Shown: piece after piece, positions 34,234-41,548 of the stretch
Layout of the letters: every line of letters begins with the position of its first letter
How positions within the stretch are numbered: position 1 is the stretch's first letter
NCBI RefSeq assembly: GCF_000745185.1
Contig: NZ_JQNJ01000001.1
Coordinates: forward strand, 1,883,501-1,947,500
DNA length: 64,000 nucleotides
Source of the DNA: Muricauda sp. MAR_2010_75
GTDB taxonomy: Bacteria > Bacteroidota > Bacteroidia > Flavobacteriales > Flavobacteriaceae
Reading direction: 5' to 3'
The notes under the pieces: generated by a model
Databases searched by the model: none
Told to the model about the DNA's origin: nothing
Seen by the model: the letters and a program-made list of their open reading frames with translations, nothing else
Translations under genes and position numbers: made by a program

Positions 34234-35139
34234 ATGGCAGAAAAAGCAGATTTGGATTTTACGTACACCACTATAGACGAGATATTCCGTTTGAGCATGG
34301 GTGAAACCGCTGATTACAGTGGCGCCAAATATGATGGCGATTTTTCAATGTCCTTGGAGGATGCACAAAGGGAAAAACATCGGTTTATAGCGGATAGCAT
34401 ACACGTTAAATATGGAAGCAAAGTATTGGACATGGCCTGTGGCTGGGGACCCTTTATCAAATATGCTTCCCAAGATAGGGGTGCCATTTGTACGGGCCTG
34501 ACCTTATCTGAGGGACAAGCCGAAGCCTGTCAGAAAAATGGAATGAAGGTCATTGTAAAGGATTGTCGCTATGTAGTACCGGAAGACTTTGGAATGTTTG
34601 ATGCCATATCTTGCATAGGAGGTTTGGAACATTTTTGCTCCATTGAGGAATGGAAAGAAGGTAAACAAGAAAAAGTGTACAGTGACTTCTTTAAAATCGT
34701 GGCAGATTTGTTGCCAAAAGGAGGCAGGTTCTATATGCAAACGATGACTTTCAGTAAAAATATGATTGAGTATGAAGAAATGGATGTCAATGCCAAAAAA
34801 GGCTCTGCGGCCCATGTCATGGCATTGATGGTCAAGGAGTTTCCGGGTTCATGGCTGCCCTACGGCCCAGAAATGGTAATACGAAATGCAGAACCAAATT
34901 TTAAATTGATCTCGCAAAGTAGTGGAAGATTGGACTATATCGAGACGATAAGCCAATGGCGAAAGAAGTTCAGGAAGTTCAACCTAAAAAAATATTGGCT
35001 CTATCTATCCTTGGTTCCCAAATACATAATGGACAAAGAGTTTAGGCATCAAGTGGCCGTCTTTAAAATCAGCCCAAACAAAATATGCTTTGAAAAGGAA
35101 ATAATGGACCATTATCGATTGGTATTTGAGAAAATTTAG
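34234..35139 (+). CDS. SAM methyltransferase of the cyclopropane-fatty-acid synthase family
   Basis: This 301-residue class I methyltransferase has motif I VLDMACGWGPF (about residue 69), GLTLSEGQ (about 89), which is typical of CFA/mycolic acid methyltransferases, and GGLEHF at about 129 where CFA enzymes have GMFEHV. The C-terminal KYWLYLSLVPKYI segment may touch membrane lipid. It could modify unsaturated phospholipid chains or another small lipid. The lack of the exact CFA motif leaves the substrate open. It lies upstream of an AraC regulator and near a desaturase gene. Confidence 0.78.
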   Translation: MAEKADLDFTYTTIDEIFRLSMGETADYSGAKYDGDFSMSLEDAQREKHRFIADSIHVKYGSKVLDMACGWGPFIKYASQDRGAICTGLTLSEGQAEACQKNGMKVIVKDCRYVVPEDFGMFDAISCIGGLEHFCSIEEWKEGKQEKVYSDFFKIVADLLPKGGRFYMQTMTFSKNMIEYEEMDVNAKKGSAAHVMALMVKEFPGSWLPYGPEMVIRNAEPNFKLISQSSGRLDYIETISQWRKKFRKFNLKKYWLYLSLVPKYIMDKEFRHQVAVFKISPNKICFEKEIMDHYRLVFEKI

Positions 35140-35199: not shown

Positions 35200-35760
35200 A
35201 TGAAATTATATATAAAATACATGGTCAGTCTTCGCTGTAAAATGTTGGTAAAGGAAGAGCTGACAAAGTTGGGGTTGGGTTATGCTACATTGAATCTGGG
35301 CATGGTTGAAACTATGGGGGAAATTGCTCCTGAAAAGCGGATCCAACTCAAAACTAATCTACTGAGGTCTGGATTGGAATTATTGGATGATAAGAAGAGC
35401 ATATTAATTGAAAAAATTAAGAATGTAATCATTGAAATGATCCATCATACTGATGAAATCCCAAAAACCAATTACTCTGGGTATCTGAGCGAAAAATTGG
35501 GATATGACTACACATATTTGTCCAACACTTTTTCTGAAGTGAAAGGAATCACCATACAGCATTATATCATTAGACATAAAATTGAAAGAGTAAAAGAGTT
35601 GCTTTTATATGACGAGCTCAATCTTACCCAAATAGCATATAAACTCCATTATAGCAGTTCCGCACATCTCTCCAATCAATTTAAAAAAGTCACGGGTCTT
35701 ACGCCCTCCTATTATAAAAGTTTAAAGGCAAAAAGGACGCAAAACTTGGAAAACCTGTGA
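35200..35760 (+). CDS. AraC-family transcription regulator (short form)
   Basis: This 186-residue regulator has an N-terminal domain (about 1-80: KLYIKYMVSLRCKMLVKEEL, LGYATLNLGMVE) that looks like a small alpha/beta ferredoxin-type fold. A C-terminal AraC double helix-turn-helix (about 90-180) follows, with NLTQIAYKLHYSSSAHLSNQFKKVTG. The family is common in Bacteroidota accessory DNA. It has no cupin sensor. It lies 60 bases after the methyltransferase and may control it or the small genes downstream. Confidence 0.83.
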   Translation: MKLYIKYMVSLRCKMLVKEELTKLGLGYATLNLGMVETMGEIAPEKRIQLKTNLLRSGLELLDDKKSILIEKIKNVIIEMIHHTDEIPKTNYSGYLSEKLGYDYTYLSNTFSEVKGITIQHYIIRHKIERVKELLLYDELNLTQIAYKLHYSSSAHLSNQFKKVTGLTPSYYKSLKAKRTQNLENL

Positions 35761-36332: not shown

Positions 36333-36449
36333 ATGTCAAAGGAAAAAGAAGGAAAGAAAAAGTCAGGAAAAACACCACCCTCAAAAACCCCTAAAGAAAA
36401 AAAGGCAGCCAAAAAAGCCAAGCGGAATGCCAAAAATAGGTCGGAATAG
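36333..36449 (+). CDS. Small lysine-rich basic protein
   Basis: This 38-residue ORF starts MSKEKEGKKKSGKTPPSKTP and ends KKAKRNAKNRSE. About 40% of residues are lysine, with Pro/Thr linkers and no hydrophobic core. It is almost surely disordered and would bind nucleic acid or ribosome. Similar tiny Lys-rich proteins occur in flavobacteria, as far as I recall. It lies just before the cupin gene. Confidence 0.55.
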   Translation: MSKEKEGKKKSGKTPPSKTPKEKKAAKKAKRNAKNRSE

Positions 36450-36480
36450 GTGGAAGATACCAAATTTATATTATTTGATT

Positions 36481-36813
36481 ATGGACAAGGGTGAATTTGA
36501 GGAATCCAAGACATTTAACCTAGCGGATATGTTGGAATTCAATTCCAATGCCATTGTGGTAAAGAATATTAGTGTTCAGGAAAGCTCTATCATTCAAGCA
36601 TTTGCATTTGATTTCGGCAAGGTTTTGTCCCATAATGAATCGCCCTTTATTCGATTCATCCATATCATTGAAGGAAAGGCCGAGGTTGTCATAAACGGGA
36701 ATTCCACTTTTATGGGGAGAGGAGATTCCATAATCATCCCTGCATCCACACCATGCTCTTTTGAAGCAAATCACAAGTTCAAGATGCTATGTGTCACTAT
36801 AAAAAATGAATGA
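36481..36813 (+). CDS. Small cupin-fold protein (AraC-sensor-like)
   Basis: This 110-residue protein starts at MDKGEFEESKTFN (36481); the longer frame from 36427 overlaps the Lys-rich ORF. The core IRFIHIIEGKAEVVINGNST plus GRGDSIIIPASTPCSFEA forms a cupin barrel like those ahead of AraC helix-turn-helix domains, but no DNA-binding domain follows. The metal-ligand His set is incomplete. It may be a stand-alone ligand sensor or a remnant of a regulator. Confidence 0.7.
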   Translation: MDKGEFEESKTFNLADMLEFNSNAIVVKNISVQESSIIQAFAFDFGKVLSHNESPFIRFIHIIEGKAEVVINGNSTFMGRGDSIIIPASTPCSFEANHKFKMLCVTIKNE

Positions 36814-36849
36814 CCCCATATATATTCCATCTGTACAAAAGCGTATCCA

Positions 36850-37056
36850 GTGAAAAAGAATTACATAATAAAAAAATATAAAAAAGGAGATCTTGTTTGC
36901 GCAAAGGTAAGGCCCTCTGTCATTCTTGTTGTACGATTGTACGTTCGTAAAATATATCACTGCACCATTCAGAATGATTCTATGGCAAATGAGTTACTTT
37001 ATTTTGATAGTGAGCTAAGGCCATACATAAGTGGTCTATCTATAATAAAAGATTAA
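36850..37056 (+). CDS. Small conserved hypothetical protein
   Basis: This 68-residue basic protein has the pattern YKKGDLVCAKVRPSVILVVRL then IYHCTIQND and a C-terminal LLYFDSELRPY. It looks like a small beta-barrel of the kind annotated as hypothetical in many flavobacteria, but I cannot name a family. It ends before a terminator shared with convergent cspA. Confidence 0.6.
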   Translation: MKKNYIIKKYKKGDLVCAKVRPSVILVVRLYVRKIYHCTIQNDSMANELLYFDSELRPYISGLSIIKD

Positions 37057-37114
37057 CAGAAAATAAGATGGAACAAGGTATCTTGGTTTATGGTGAGAAC
37101 GGGACAATTGCCCA

Positions 37115-37145
37115 TAAAAAAACCATCTTTTCAAGATGGTTTTTG
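37115..37145. terminator. Bidirectional terminator, 36850 gene / cspA
   Basis: AAAAAACCATCTT and AAGATGGTTTTT flank a short TTC loop; both strands end in a T-run. It serves the convergent genes on either side. Confidence 0.8.
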
Positions 37146-37166
37146 TTGGTTCTTGGATTATGGAAT

Positions 37167-37364
37167 CTAATTGATCAATAATTCTACATTCACGGCGTTC
37201 ATGCCCTTCTGACCCCTTTCCATTGTAAATTTCACCTTATCGTTTTCACGGATTTTATCCACGAGACCACTTTGGTGCACAAACACATCATCATTGGAGT
37301 CGTTGGGCTGAATAAAGCCAAAGCCCTTTGCTTCATTAAAAAATTTTACTGTTCCTTCTTGCAT
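37167..37364 (-). CDS. Cold-shock domain protein
   Basis: This 65-residue CspA-type RNA chaperone carries RNP1 KGFGFIQP (about residue 13) and RNP2 DVFVHQSG (about 26), with the usual GTVKFFN start. It melts mRNA structure in cold or stress. It is 56 bases downstream of a desaturase gene on the same strand; that leader may contain cold-responsive structure. Confidence 0.95.
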   Translation of the reverse strand: MQEGTVKFFNEAKGFGFIQPNDSNDDVFVHQSGLVDKIRENDKVKFTMERGQKGMNAVNVELLIN

Positions 37365-37420
37365 TACTTTATGTTTACTATTAATATTCTATTTAATGTT
37401 TGTTCCTTATCATCACCCAT

Positions 37421-38551
37421 CTATCCGGTAAGAATAGGTTGTGCTTTGCCTAACTTCCGTAATACCCCAACATGGTCTATGATAGCTGTGATAAATGTTC
37501 TTTTTGTGTTATAAGGTATCCCATATTCCTTTGCAGTATCCGCTACGATGCCAGATATTTTTCTGTAATGTACATGGCAGACATTGGGCAATAGATGATG
37601 CTCCACCTGATAGTTCAACCCACCAATGAGCCATGAAAATATTCTGCTCTTGGGAGAAAAATTAGTTGTTGTGGCCAGTTGGTGGTCTGCCCAATCACTT
37701 GAAATTACCCCATCTTCATTGGGCAGTGGGAATTCCGTGTTCGGCATAATGTGGGCCACCTGAAATACGATACTGATCAACAGGCCCGTAACAAAGTGCA
37801 TGCTCAGAAAGGCCAGGATAATGATCCATGGGGCCAGAGGTACAACCAACAAGGGTATGACCAAGGCATACGAAAAGTATATCAACTTCCATCCAATAAT
37901 CTTCAGAAGCGCATTTCTGTAACCATTCTTTTTGTCGAAAAATCCCATTTTCCGATACCGATCAAGTCTTATGAAATCTTTGGTGGTTATCCAAGAGACA
38001 GTAGATAGCCCATAAAAGAACCATACATACAAGTATTGGAATCTATGCAGGCCATTTTTTTTGGCATGTGGGGAGAACCTAAGGAAAAAAGGAGCGTTAA
38101 TGTCATCGTCTGCCCCTTCTATGTTGGTATAGGTATGATGGAGTACATTGTGTTGGATTTTCCAAACAGCGGCATTGCCACCTATAAGGTTCATGGTGTA
38201 TCCAAGATATTTGTTCACTTTTTGATTTTTGGAGTAAGATCCATGGATGGCGTCGTGCATAATGCCCATTCCTATTCCGGCCATTCCTATTCCGCTAATT
38301 ATATAAAAACCAAATAGCAATAAGGGAGTGGTGATTGTTCCAATATTTATGAAAATTAAGGGGGTAAAAAAAACGGAGAGCATGACCATGGTCTTCACAA
38401 CCATACTTTTGTTGGCATGTCTACTAATATTGTTTGTTTTAAAATATGTACTGACCCTGTTTCTCAACGTTTTTGAAAAATCAGAATTTGAATTTTTTGA
38501 AAACTTTGGCTTGTTAATGTCGTTTATTGCGGTTCGGTCTTGTTCACGCAT
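37421..38551 (-). CDS. Acyl-lipid/acyl-CoA front-end type fatty acid desaturase
   Basis: This 376-residue membrane di-iron desaturase has three His boxes: HDAIH, HNVLHH and QVEHHLLP. The Gln in the third box is typical of front-end (delta-6/linoleoyl-type) desaturases. Four or more membrane helices lie at about 50-95 and 205-265. I start at MREQDRTAIND (38551); an upstream ATG at 38593 adds 14 residues. Its neighbour cspA suggests a cold-response pair that restores membrane fluidity and translation. Confidence 0.9.
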   Translation of the reverse strand: MREQDRTAINDINKPKFSKNSNSDFSKTLRNRVSTYFKTNNISRHANKSMVVKTMVMLSVFFTPLIFINIGTITTPLLLFGFYIISGIGMAGIGMGIMHDAIHGSYSKNQKVNKYLGYTMNLIGGNAAVWKIQHNVLHHTYTNIEGADDDINAPFFLRFSPHAKKNGLHRFQYLYVWFFYGLSTVSWITTKDFIRLDRYRKMGFFDKKNGYRNALLKIIGWKLIYFSYALVIPLLVVPLAPWIIILAFLSMHFVTGLLISIVFQVAHIMPNTEFPLPNEDGVISSDWADHQLATTTNFSPKSRIFSWLIGGLNYQVEHHLLPNVCHVHYRKISGIVADTAKEYGIPYNTKRTFITAIIDHVGVLRKLGKAQPILTG

Positions 38552-39210
38552 GTGATATAAAGGATAATGAATAAGCGCAATTGGCTTGGGCATGTTGAAG
38601 ATTTATCCAAATATGGGGACCATTACATAACAGTCCAAATCCACACAGGCGTCAACATCCTTAACGTTTGGCTTAAAATATTTGACTACGTTATAAATTA
38701 AAAAGAAGAGAGCTGAAAATGAATTGAGGATCCGCGAAGACTAAATTGACTTGGGCTTTCTGAATTTTAACATCACAAATTTACCATTTATCTGGGCAGT
38801 ATTACCCAATACTGTGTTAATTGTTGAGAATAAGTAGTTTAAGGAGTAAAGGATGAATTACCATTTCAATGCCAATTGGAATAAGAAAAATGAATGCGCA
38901 GTGGGAAGTTAGGACCATTCCTTATTGCAAAATAAACAGGACAAACAAGTTAAGTTCCAATTTAAATCCTTTCCTTTACAGCGCATCACGGATAATGGAC
39001 GATGATTGCTCCAATCCTTAAATAAAAAGATCGCCCTCTCCTTTACCTATTTCCAAATTCACAAGGGGCCACTTCTTAGTTATTTTTTGCTTGAACCAAT
39101 AGTAGCGTTTTAAAGGCCAGACAGGCCTAAAGTCCAAAGTTGTATATGCCATGGGACCATCATATCCCTTAAATGGCAGTATTTAATAATTAGTACTAAA
39201 AAGAAAATAT
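38552..39210. other. Gene-free stretch upstream of the S21 paralogue
   Basis: There are about 650 AT-rich bases with stop codons in all frames. The only Shine-Dalgarno-like site is AAGGAG at 38841, before a 19-codon ORF (38853-38912) that I do not believe. No clear promoter, RNA gene or repeat is seen. It may hold regulatory DNA for the divergent desaturase gene and the rpsU-like gene. Confidence 0.5.
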
Positions 39211-39405
39211 ATGCTAATCATAAAGTTAGTTCCAGGCGAGAACATAGAAAGGGCCTTAAAAAGGTACAGGAACAAGGTGAGGAACACCCAACAGTTGAAA
39301 CGTATCAGGGAGAACCAAGAGTTTACCAAAAAATCCGAGGAGAAGAGAGAGAATCTGAAAAAAGCGATTCATAAGAATGAATATTTGAAAAAGAATGAGG
39401 AGTGA
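39211..39405 (+). CDS. rpsU: Divergent ribosomal protein bS21
   Basis: This 64-residue protein keeps the S21 core GENIERALKRYRNKVRNTQQL and the Arg/Lys-rich C-terminal helix (FTKKSEEKRENLKKA). The N-terminus (LIIKLVPGEN) and tail differ from what I recall of flavobacterial housekeeping S21. bS21 sits at the anti-Shine-Dalgarno end of 16S rRNA and influences mRNA choice in Flavobacteria. No Shine-Dalgarno is seen before this start. It is 4 bases ahead of an NYN-LOTUS gene, and probably a second, conditional S21 copy. Confidence 0.85.
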   Translation: MLIIKLVPGENIERALKRYRNKVRNTQQLKRIRENQEFTKKSEEKRENLKKAIHKNEYLKKNEE

Positions 39406-39409
39406 TTTT

Positions 39410-40147
39410 ATGGACAAAGATCTAAACCTGGCCGTCCTAATAGATGGCGACAATATCCCCTCCAAATATGTCAAGGAAATGTTGGAAGAGATTGCCAAAT
39501 ATGGAAATCCAAGTATTAAAAGGATTTATGGCGATTGGACAAAGCCAAGTTTGACAAAATGGAAGGATGTCCTACTAAAAAATGCCATTACCCCTGTACA
39601 ACAATATGGGTATACCACGGGCAAGAATTCAACGGACAGTGCCATGATCATTGATGCAATGGATATACTGTATTCCGGAAAAGTAAATGGTTTTTCCCTG
39701 GTTTCCAGTGACAGTGATTTTACCAGATTGGCCATTCGGCTAAGAGAGGCCGGGATGACAGTCTTTGGTATTGGAGAACGAAAGACCCCAGATCCCTTTA
39801 TCGTTTCTTGCGACAAGTTCATATACCTTGAAATACTAAATAAGACCCATGTAGGGGAGTCCAACGCCCCAGAAAAAAACGATAAAAACAAGGTCGATAA
39901 AATCACACCTAAGGTTGTTGACCTTATCCTTTCCACTATAGCAGATGTGGAGGATGAAGAAGGTTGGGCCTTCTTGGGCGAGGTGGGGACTTTGTTGCAA
40001 AAGAAACAGCCCAATTTTGATGCAAGAAACTACGGGTTTCGAAAACTTACACCTTTGGTAAAATCCATAGGTCAAATTGAAATAGGGTCCAGAAAAAATC
40101 CAAAGGGCAACGGGAACCTGATTTATGTAAGGACAATGACCCAATGA
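39410..40147 (+). CDS. NYN (PIN-like) RNase with C-terminal LOTUS/OST-HTH domain
   Basis: This protein has 245 residues. The NYN domain (about 5-145) keeps the acidic metal site: Asp12 and Asp14 (IDGDN), Asp76 (NSTDSAM) and Asp101/Asp103 (SSDSDF), as in LabA/MARF1-type RNases. The LOTUS domain (about 165-240) is seen from EEGWAFLGEVG and NFDARNYGFRKLTPLV; such domains bind RNA, notably G-rich RNA. It likely cleaves RNA chosen by the LOTUS domain. I use the ATG at 39410, because the one at 39395 lies in the S21 gene. It sits between S21 and sigma factor genes. Confidence 0.88.
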   Translation: MDKDLNLAVLIDGDNIPSKYVKEMLEEIAKYGNPSIKRIYGDWTKPSLTKWKDVLLKNAITPVQQYGYTTGKNSTDSAMIIDAMDILYSGKVNGFSLVSSDSDFTRLAIRLREAGMTVFGIGERKTPDPFIVSCDKFIYLEILNKTHVGESNAPEKNDKNKVDKITPKVVDLILSTIADVEDEEGWAFLGEVGTLLQKKQPNFDARNYGFRKLTPLVKSIGQIEIGSRKNPKGNGNLIYVRTMTQ

Positions 40148-40159
40148 AAAACATAACCT

Positions 40160-41026
40160 ATGAGATCTCTTACCATATCAAAGCAAATAACAGCAAGGGA
40201 TACCCTTTCCTTGAACAAATACCTCAGTGATATAAGCCGTATTCCAATGATTACTGAAGAGGAAGAGGTTAATCTGGCAGTTCGCATAAGGCAAGGGGAC
40301 AACGAGGCTCTGGAAAAACTGGTCTCGGCCAATTTACGATTTGTGGTGTCTGTGGCGAAACAATACCAATCAAGGGGACTCAATTTGCATGATCTCATTA
40401 ACGAGGGAAATGTTGGGCTTGTCAGAGCAGCATCCAAATTTGATGAAACACGTGGTTTCAAGTTTATTTCATATGCTGTATGGTGGATACGTCAAGGAAT
40501 CATACAGGCACTTACGGAAAAATCAAGAATGGTGAGATTGCCCTTGAACAAAATAAATGTAATCAACAAAATAAAGAAGGTCACCTCTCATTTTGAACAA
40601 GTTCATCAAAGACCACCCACTGCAGAAGAAATATCCGAACAGATAGATTTCTCACTTTCAGAAATCCAAATATGCTTAAAGCACTCTTCTTGGCCTCTTT
40701 CCATGGATGAACCATTAAAAATTGGTGATGGAGGATTGAGTTTGCACGACACAATGCGCTCCGATGAGTTTGGTAGTCCAGAACAAAAGTTAATCAACCA
40801 TTCATTACAAATGGAGATTGATGGTGTTTTGGATATTCTATCGTATCGCGAAGCCTTTGTGATCAAAATGATTTTTGGAATAGGAGTGGAAGATTCCATG
40901 GGATTGGAAGAAATTGCTTTTCATTTAGGTTTAACCAAAGAAAGAGTGCGACAAATAAAAGTAACAGCTTTGGCCAAGTTAAGAAACTCCTCCAAAATTG
41001 AATTTCTGAAGCAGTATTTGGAATAA
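40160..41026 (+). CDS. Divergent RpoD-like sigma-70 factor
   Basis: This 288-residue sigma factor resembles the short Bacteroidota primary sigma. It has region 1.2/2 (DTLSLNKYLSDISRIPMITE, ANLRFVVSVAKQYQ, INEGNVGLVRAASKFDETRG, YAVWWIRQ), region 3 and region 4 with a helix-turn-helix (GLEEIAFHLGLTKERVRQIK). Many positions differ from the housekeeping protein, especially in regions 3 and 4, so this is likely an alternative sigma. It follows the NYN-LOTUS gene by 12 bases and is probably co-transcribed with S21. No anti-sigma gene is adjacent. Confidence 0.88.
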   Translation: MRSLTISKQITARDTLSLNKYLSDISRIPMITEEEEVNLAVRIRQGDNEALEKLVSANLRFVVSVAKQYQSRGLNLHDLINEGNVGLVRAASKFDETRGFKFISYAVWWIRQGIIQALTEKSRMVRLPLNKINVINKIKKVTSHFEQVHQRPPTAEEISEQIDFSLSEIQICLKHSSWPLSMDEPLKIGDGGLSLHDTMRSDEFGSPEQKLINHSLQMEIDGVLDILSYREAFVIKMIFGIGVEDSMGLEEIAFHLGLTKERVRQIKVTALAKLRNSSKIEFLKQYLE

Positions 41027-41209
41027 ATATTTTTTGCAGAAACGAATAACGAATATAAGCTGTTAATGGCCATTCAACGTGGAAACTCTCCAAGGCACTT
41101 GAAAACCCCGTTGGTATTTACTGGAAGGTTTTTTTTGTTGGAAACAGGTATGGAATACGAATGTTCGGCTTCACGTTTTACAAAGACTAAACCACTCCTT
41201 TAAATTTCA

Positions 41210-41217
41210 TATTTTTG
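41210..41217 (+). promoter_or_regulatory. -7 element abutting the DUF6660 start codon
   Basis: TATTTTTG matches TAnnTTTG and ends 4 bases before the ATG at 41222, so transcription from it would be leaderless or start inside the gene. Confidence 0.35.
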
Positions 41218-41221
41218 GGGC

Positions 41222-41548
41222 ATGAAAGTTTTGGCGGTCATTTTATCATTGCTTACGATTCTGCTTTCATCGTATCCATGTTGCCAGGAGACCGATTCTT
41301 GTTCCGAAGAATTATTGGTGGGCCAAAGTGGACACGACGATTCAGATGAGCCTCCGCTTAGCGAGGATTCGCCTTGTTCCCCTTTTTATACCTGTGGCAG
41401 ATGTCCTGGGTTTACCATTAGGGATGAAGCAGTGGATTTCATCTACCTGGAGGTTGATAAGGAAACGCCACCAATGACTTATCTTGAACTTTTGCCCAAG
41501 GAAGTATATTTCTTTTCCCTAAAACCCCCTCGCACTTTTGGAGTATAG
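41222..41548 (+). CDS. DUF6660 small exported Cys-rich protein
   Basis: This 108-residue protein has a signal peptide (MKVLAVILSLLTILLSSYPC) and a mature part with Cys pairs (PCCQETDSC) and a CGRCPG motif. It matches the DUF6660 group that commonly precedes TonB receptors in Bacteroidota. The thiols may bind a metal such as copper (inference). It ends 67 bases before the receptor gene and is likely co-transcribed. Confidence 0.75.
   Translation: MKVLAVILSLLTILLSSYPCCQETDSCSEELLVGQSGHDDSDEPPLSEDSPCSPFYTCGRCPGFTIRDEAVDFIYLEVDKETPPMTYLELLPKEVYFFSLKPPRTFGV

Follow-up and report, generated by a model that had tools for sequence, protein, structure and literature searches.

In Flavobacteriaceae, genes predicted to encode paralogues of the ribosomal protein bS21 are repeatedly found on the same strand beside genes for predicted paralogues of the sigma factor RpoD, in several gene orders. 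We analysed a stretch of 64,000 nucleotides of the Muricauda sp. MAR_2010_75 genome (hereafter the window), in which a third gene, coding for a protein with NYN and LOTUS domains, separates the two. The comparisons presented below suggest that the stable element is the combination of an alternative bS21 with an alternative RpoD-type sigma, and that the NYN-LOTUS gene is a frequent third member in the lineage of the window. What the analysis shows are the genes, their linkage and co-inheritance, selection on them and a contrast in Shine-Dalgarno sequences; entry of the variant into ribosomes, promoter specificity, nuclease activity, the switch and its signal are inferred. The three genes (the trio) are:

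39211..39405, + strand: rpsU paralogue (alternative bS21) of 64 aa, with His at position 54 and without a Shine-Dalgarno sequence (PF01165)
39410..40147, + strand: NYN-LOTUS protein of 245 aa, predicted nuclease; an alternative ORF start at 39395 is possible (NYN and OST-HTH/LOTUS Pfam domains)
40160..41026, + strand: RpoD-like alternative sigma of 288 aa, regions 1.2-4 (Sigma70 Pfam regions)

The coordinates and the gaps of 4 bases between S21 and NYN and of 12 bases between NYN and sigma agree with the initial annotation of this DNA, and its description of S21 and sigma as divergent is fair. The window S21 exceeds the cut-off of the Pfam Ribosomal_S21 family (PF01165; 35.3 bits, cut-off 27) and falls short of that of the TIGR00030 equivalog (23.1, cut-off 28.95). 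The sigma has a primary-type architecture, with regions 1.2, 2, 3 and 4 of Sigma70 all above their Pfam cut-offs, and its scores remain below the cut-offs of both RpoD_Cterm (TIGR02393; 226, cut-off 354) and RpoS (TIGR02394; 248, cut-off 379). In the middle protein, the NYN (132.9 bits) and LOTUS/OST-HTH (PF12872; 62.5 bits) domains score above the Pfam cut-offs. When the trio genes of the window were compared with those of three relatives, dN/dS values were 0.014-0.071 in eight of nine comparisons, the ninth (S21 versus L015) being saturated; such low values point to purifying selection on the trio genes.

The window genome (4.42 Mb, one contig) harbours three S21 genes, one NYN gene and three RpoD-class sigmas. 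Its best-scoring S21 gene has an extended Shine-Dalgarno (SD) sequence, and its primary sigma gene adjoins pnp (L133). The initial annotation had named as fatal to its proposal of a three-gene module the case that the genome has no rpsU other than this one, or that the sigma is its primary one; these counts rule out both. A second SD-less S21 paralogue (L132:5860-6057; C1:1979865-1980056) is found upstream of proC-proB-proA. It is preceded by an unassigned ORF of 147 aa, and S21 proteins with similar scores were found again in many genomes of the genus. The second-class sigma of the window genome (L134; classes are described below) has no S21 neighbour and is not adjacent to this second S21 gene.

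The trio is conserved, with gaps in its distribution, within the genus. Defining trio-type S21 by a score of 100 bits or more, a cut chosen in this analysis, we found it in 35 of 71 genus genomes and the NYN gene in 34; both are present in 33, S21 only in two, NYN only in one and neither in 35 (Fisher 1e-16, kinship ignored). The one genome with NYN but without trio-type S21 (G790) has an NYN protein that is only 68% identical. S21 and NYN are separated by -5 to +11 bases in all 35 genus copies compared (33 genomes), which, together with the low dN/dS, argues that the linkage of the trio is not due to chance. NYN and sigma are each present in 27 of 28 retrieved genus loci: L401 (G808) lacks NYN but keeps S21-sigma, and L417 stops at a contig end before the expected sigma. 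NYN is also missing from G814, where S21-sigma is kept, so that two genus genomes are of this type. The co-occurrence of S21 and NYN and the rarity of S21-sigma without NYN (two cases) suggest that gain and loss were largely those of the whole block. As about half of the genus is devoid of the trio, it is not essential. Two trio-type copies are present in each of G799 and G828, and the neighbours of the compared genus loci differ. The second copy of G799 (L430, G799:C10:123500-135500) is close to genes for Fic, SSB, RadC, a RES/Xre toxin-antitoxin pair and a BfmA/BtgA mobilisation protein. The differing neighbours, the double copies and this mobilisation gene make a spread via mobile elements plausible.

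The searches proposed with the initial annotation, for co-occurrence in related genomes and for a second rpsU and rpoD, thus bore it out in that S21 and NYN occur together in 33 of 71 genus genomes, as conserved neighbours, and in that the window genome has a separate SD-bearing rpsU and a separate primary sigma elsewhere. The notion of a fixed trio did not hold. NYN is optional in the genus (two genomes), and in two genomes of another genus (G223 and G380) S21-NYN has no adjacent sigma; the most recurrent pairing is therefore that of S21 with sigma.

This pairing recurs in the family beyond the genus. Among the best 30 S21 loci by rank from 397 family genomes, 13 have a sigma gene within the 1.5 kb flank, and among SD-less S21 loci of the same ranking, taken with wider flanks, a sigma gene is nearby in 18 of 39 and not in the other 21; the two sets overlap in genomes, and since ranking by a trio-type S21 query favours the trio, neither fraction is a family-wide frequency. 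By rough reckoning, far fewer than 1% of randomly chosen places in a genome would have a sigma gene so close. All S21-neighbouring sigmas within 1.5 kb are on the S21 strand. In contrast, none of the 19 loci of SD-bearing housekeeping rpsU genes has a sigma gene within 1.5 kb. The gene orders include S21-NYN-sigma, S21-sigma (G191 and G172), csp-S21-sigma, with a cold-shock-domain protein gene in front (G219), and sigma-S21 (e.g. G069, G283, G097, G024 and G171). NYN precedes S21 in L279, and in L037 the sigma gene is ~2 kb away on the opposite strand. Three genomes (G154, G098 and G097) have two S21-sigma pairs each, one of either kind, in addition to an SD-bearing rpsU without a sigma neighbour; in the third-class pair of G097, S21 and sigma are 1.4 kb apart. 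Outside the family, each of the 77 genomes matching the paralogue profile (E 1e-12, a strict threshold that weaker paralogues could escape) has one copy, except G430 with two.

We classified the sigmas of 18 genomes that had been picked because many of them hold a pair. Relative to the primary sigma of the window genome, their 45 RpoD-class sigmas comprise 18 primary (94-100% identical), 16 second-class (69-83%) and 11 more divergent proteins (47-66%). The second-class sigmas are those in the sigma-S21 order. A fourth RpoD-class sigma of G191 (G191:C2:473673-474530) is 64% identical to the primary. In a sigma tree with several long branches and unconverged bootstrap, support of 99/98 separates 19 trio-class rows from the 38 rows of primary and second-class sigmas. 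Most DNA-contact residues appear to be retained in the window sigma, as judged by eye from the alignment. With regions 1.2-4 and its kinship to RpoD, this protein resembles group 2 (RpoS-like) alternative primary-type sigmas, and its best NCBIfam scores are of the RpoS and RpoD types. It differs from them in that it lies under every curated cut-off shown save that of the general sigma70-ECF superfamily, and in having its own S21.

The clearest difference between the two kinds of S21 concerns the control of their own genes: housekeeping rpsU has an extended SD and the paralogues do not. The same 18 genomes contain 42 S21 genes, with one SD-bearing gene per genome and 24 genes without the extended SD. 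Pairing energies computed against the 16S tail range from -16.7 to -17.6 kcal/mol for 19 housekeeping leaders and from -9.8 to +2.9 kcal/mol for 57 distinct paralogue leaders, of which only L348 (-9.8), L016 (-9.1) and L274 (-5.5) are below -5 kcal/mol. At -2.5 kcal/mol, the window S21 leader lacks the extended SD typical of housekeeping rpsU in Bacteroidia. In a provisional tree of 64 columns, housekeeping S21 proteins form one clade (100/100), and neither the trio nor the sigma-linked labels form single clades. A study of Flavobacterium johnsoniae shows that bS21 sequesters the anti-SD, with Tyr54 stacking on A1534, and that ribosomes without bS21 can translate rpsU thanks to its extended SD, an SD-dependent autoregulation in an order, Flavobacteriales, in which strong SDs are otherwise rare (PMC9976891). 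Devoid of the extended SD, the paralogues should stand outside this autoregulatory loop. The same extended SD is found in housekeeping rpsU of 18 of 18 genomes here; the study treats rpsU as the single SD gene, and its list of paralogues is without Flavobacteriales (PMC9976891), in contrast with the SD-less paralogues described above.

That an alternate S21 changes the use of SD sequences, as the initial annotation had suggested, is weakly supported. The window protein retains most bS21 core residues in the alignment, but where typical housekeeping S21 has Tyr54, it carries His, as do L013 and L014; the 28 genus loci have Tyr in 16 and His in 12. However, Tyr is present in 52 of 57 distinct paralogues (His in four, Phe in one), and one of 19 housekeeping S21 proteins has His (L335 of G219), the other 18 having Tyr. 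We therefore rejected the loss of Tyr54 as a general mark of the S21 variant; altered SD use is not evident, and a freed anti-SD would be lineage-specific at most. L335, with an SD and yet His54, offers a natural test of the role of Tyr54.

The middle gene codes for a predicted nuclease. All 20 aligned NYN rows share residues D12, D14, D76, D82, D101 and D103, and we take the conserved Asp of the NYN domain to be catalytic. A structural model of modest confidence (mean pLDDT 64.9, pTM 0.50) retrieved with Foldseek first a Vibrio protein of unknown function and next MARF1 from mouse and human, through their NYN domains (5yaa, 6fdl). At the sequence level, the C-terminal part of the protein matches 2kpm and 2kzv, two domains of solved structure that are otherwise uncharacterised. 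MARF1 is reported to be an endoribonuclease (PMC6294520). The bacterial proteins would share with MARF1 the NYN nuclease fold and a LOTUS domain, but the trio protein has a single predicted LOTUS domain, and its bacterial family is common outside the trio operon. NYN-LOTUS proteins were found in 132 of 299 sampled family genomes, usually outside a trio. S21 adjoins in six of 30 retrieved family loci, with sigma as well in five, and in nine of the 80 loci of another search, with sigma in eight, some flanks being short in both sets. Relatives in 370 plasmid records, seven phage records and seven viral contigs also argue that the family is not specific to the trio operon. Proteins 70-75% identical to that of the window are found in metagenome-assembled genomes named Ignavibacteria/Ignavibacteriales, Candidatus Scalindua, Melioribacteraceae, Neomarinimicrobiota and Caldithrix (L021, L025, L031, L036, L047, L060 and L062), through either horizontal transfer or binning errors. 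An SD-like GAGGAG overlapping the last S21 codons would have placed the NYN gene in an SD-driven regulon; it is absent from several relatives, and we discarded this idea.

The region upstream of S21 contains a conserved block and several recurrent neighbours:

38966..39110 (boundaries approximate), + strand: leader block in front of S21, conserved and non-coding, probably a promoter or regulatory region (locus comparison)
39072-39093, + strand: leader core CTTCTTAGTTATTTTTTGCTTG, 22 bases (motif search)
37421..38593, - strand: fatty-acid desaturase (Pfam; recurrent neighbour with csp)
37167..37364, - strand: cold-shock-domain protein, csp (Pfam; recurrent neighbour)
36427..36813, + strand: cupin protein (Pfam; recurrent neighbour pair with the AraC-type regulator)
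35200..35760, + strand: AraC-type regulator, HTH_18 (recurrent neighbour)

The leader block is kept in 12 distinct loci, including those of G191 and G172 (L270 repeats L018). The window has a single copy of its 22-base core, and 100 shuffled sequences had none. A search of five genomes gave seven matches: four with at most two mismatches, all upstream of S21, and three with three mismatches; G229 gave none, and a reversed-pattern control gave five. With one good site per genome and such a control, a genome-wide regulon defined by this motif is unsupported. Two other readings of the leader were discarded: that its RNA is structured (z -0.23; 36500-41300 matched nothing in Rfam at E up to 1), and that a small upstream ORF is conserved, since the frames are broken in relatives.

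The proximity to cspA and a desaturase that had been pointed out for the window does recur. Among 63 retrieved loci scanned, with the window as the query, L013, L135, L265 and L429 share with the window a csp-desaturase pair close to the module, and L017, L136 and L432 share with it an AraC-cupin pair; most of the loci have neither. In the window genome, csp and the desaturase gene are upstream on the opposite strand and hence outside the trio operon. A gene for a CMAS (cyclopropane-synthase-like) methyltransferase (34234-35139) is in this neighbourhood too; together with csp and the genes for the desaturase, the AraC-type regulator and the cupin, it may form a membrane-lipid cluster. In eight distinct loci of other genera (L136, L137, L138, L257, L259, L260, L264 and L268), csp is on the S21 strand at most 105 bases upstream, an arrangement found in none of the 19 housekeeping rpsU loci. 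By eye, a hairpin followed by a T-run is present in seven of nine distinct csp-S21 intergenic regions (L136, L138, L257, L259, L260, L264 and L158), while L137 has a hairpin with a weak T-run and L268 has none; these terminator-like hairpins could be sites of Csp-dependent antitermination. The neighbours may thus point to cold or membrane stress, and use in the cold or in stationary phase is a guess from gene content.

Pairs of rpsU and sigma genes have a precedent in the enterobacterial rpsU-dnaG-rpoD operon, known as the macromolecular synthesis operon. Like the trio, it has genes for bS21 and for a primary-type sigma together on the same strand, but it comprises the housekeeping copies and dnaG, whereas both trio genes are paralogues, NYN-LOTUS or nothing is found between S21 and sigma, and NYN may take the place of dnaG. 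Francisella tularensis also has several bS21 homologues in one genome; the abstract of the study concerned shows incorporation of bS21-1, -2 and -3 into heterogeneous ribosomes, proposed to steer translation, and mentions no dedicated sigma (PMC9578407), whereas for the trio S21 entry into ribosomes is a prediction. Phage-encoded bS21 is likewise an extra S21 away from the host operon, but none of 80 viral S21 loci kept has a sigma or NYN relative in its flank. In agreement with the initial annotation, no S21-sigma or S21-NYN-sigma system was found named in the open-licence literature.

The reading that we favour, with a confidence that we put at about even, is an accessory and perhaps cold-related stress operon in which an alternative sigma would act together with an S21 that is free of autoregulation and would remodel ribosomes; the nuclease is an optional part. 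A signal, possibly cold or membrane stress as the neighbours suggest, would switch on the leader. The alternative sigma would compete with RpoD for RNA polymerase and thereby redirect transcription, and the bS21 variant would enter 30S subunits at the platform beside the anti-SD tail. Because its gene is without the extended SD, the variant would escape the autoregulation to which housekeeping bS21 is subject. Translation of housekeeping rpsU depends on bS21-lacking ribosomes, so that a variant that fills these ribosomes should switch housekeeping rpsU off, which would make the replacement self-reinforcing. This effect on the rpsU loop, by removal of bS21-free ribosomes, is the main testable prediction, should the variant be in ribosomes. 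Where present, NYN-LOTUS would probably trim or clear RNA during the switch. A bolder form, possible but rather doubtful, is a modular sigma/ribosome switch throughout Flavobacteriaceae, in which each non-primary RpoD-type sigma would bring an SD-less bS21 and hence its own class of ribosomes, the variant would shut housekeeping rpsU and lock the swap, and His54 lineages would also free the anti-SD. If so, G154, G098 and G097, with their two pairs and an unpaired SD-bearing rpsU, would have three types of ribosomes.

A plainer account would be that S21 and sigma are paired as proteins of growth rate and macromolecular synthesis, the paralogues serving as dosage or environmental back-up with no special ribosome. 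The linkage of rpsU with rpoD is classical, the paralogue keeps most bS21 core residues and usually Tyr54, and the DNA-contact residues of the sigma are mostly retained by eye. However, the housekeeping genes are unpaired in the loci compared (0/19 SD-bearing rpsU with sigma within 1.5 kb, primary sigma of the window genome beside pnp); the pairing is found with faster-evolving, SD-less paralogues, and we consider this account unlikely. The patchy distribution in the genus (35/71), the double copies in G799 and G828, the differing neighbours and the surroundings of the second G799 copy (Fic, SSB, RadC, RES/Xre and the BfmA/BtgA mobilisation gene) would suit a horizontally spread module for host take-over or anti-phage defence that reprogrammes or poisons expression. 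NYN-LOTUS relatives in plasmid, phage and viral records are in line with such cargo, as is the statement, in the F. johnsoniae study, that phages often carry bS21 (PMC9976891). However, no trio came up in the viral and plasmid collections, as judged by flanks for viral S21 loci (0/80 with a sigma or NYN relative) and by the NYN query alone for plasmids and phages, and the sole PADLOC match was a generic one, of the sigma to MzaA, with a fraction of its length. Cargo of this kind appears distinctly improbable. Least probable is that read-through of a terminator by Csp turns on S21 and its partners in the cold, S21 simply keeping initiation going. The eight csp-S21 loci against 0/19 for housekeeping rpsU, the hairpins with T-runs in 7/9 regions and the report that in F. 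johnsoniae the bS21 C-terminus influences initiation at rpsU more strongly in the cold (PMC9976891) all point that way. In the genus of the window, however, csp does not precede S21 within one transcription unit, and these genomes have another leader, which lacks structure.

Whether bacteria make purposeful use of specialised ribosomes is debated. The repeated tie between a bS21 paralogue and an alternative sigma hints, on genetic grounds, at joint regulation of promoter choice and of the make-up of ribosomes. The idea is directly testable, as the tie is found in the group in which the effect of bS21 on mRNA selection has already been measured. A spare S21 travelling with a spare sigma in marine flavobacteria suggests that transcription and ribosomes may change together.
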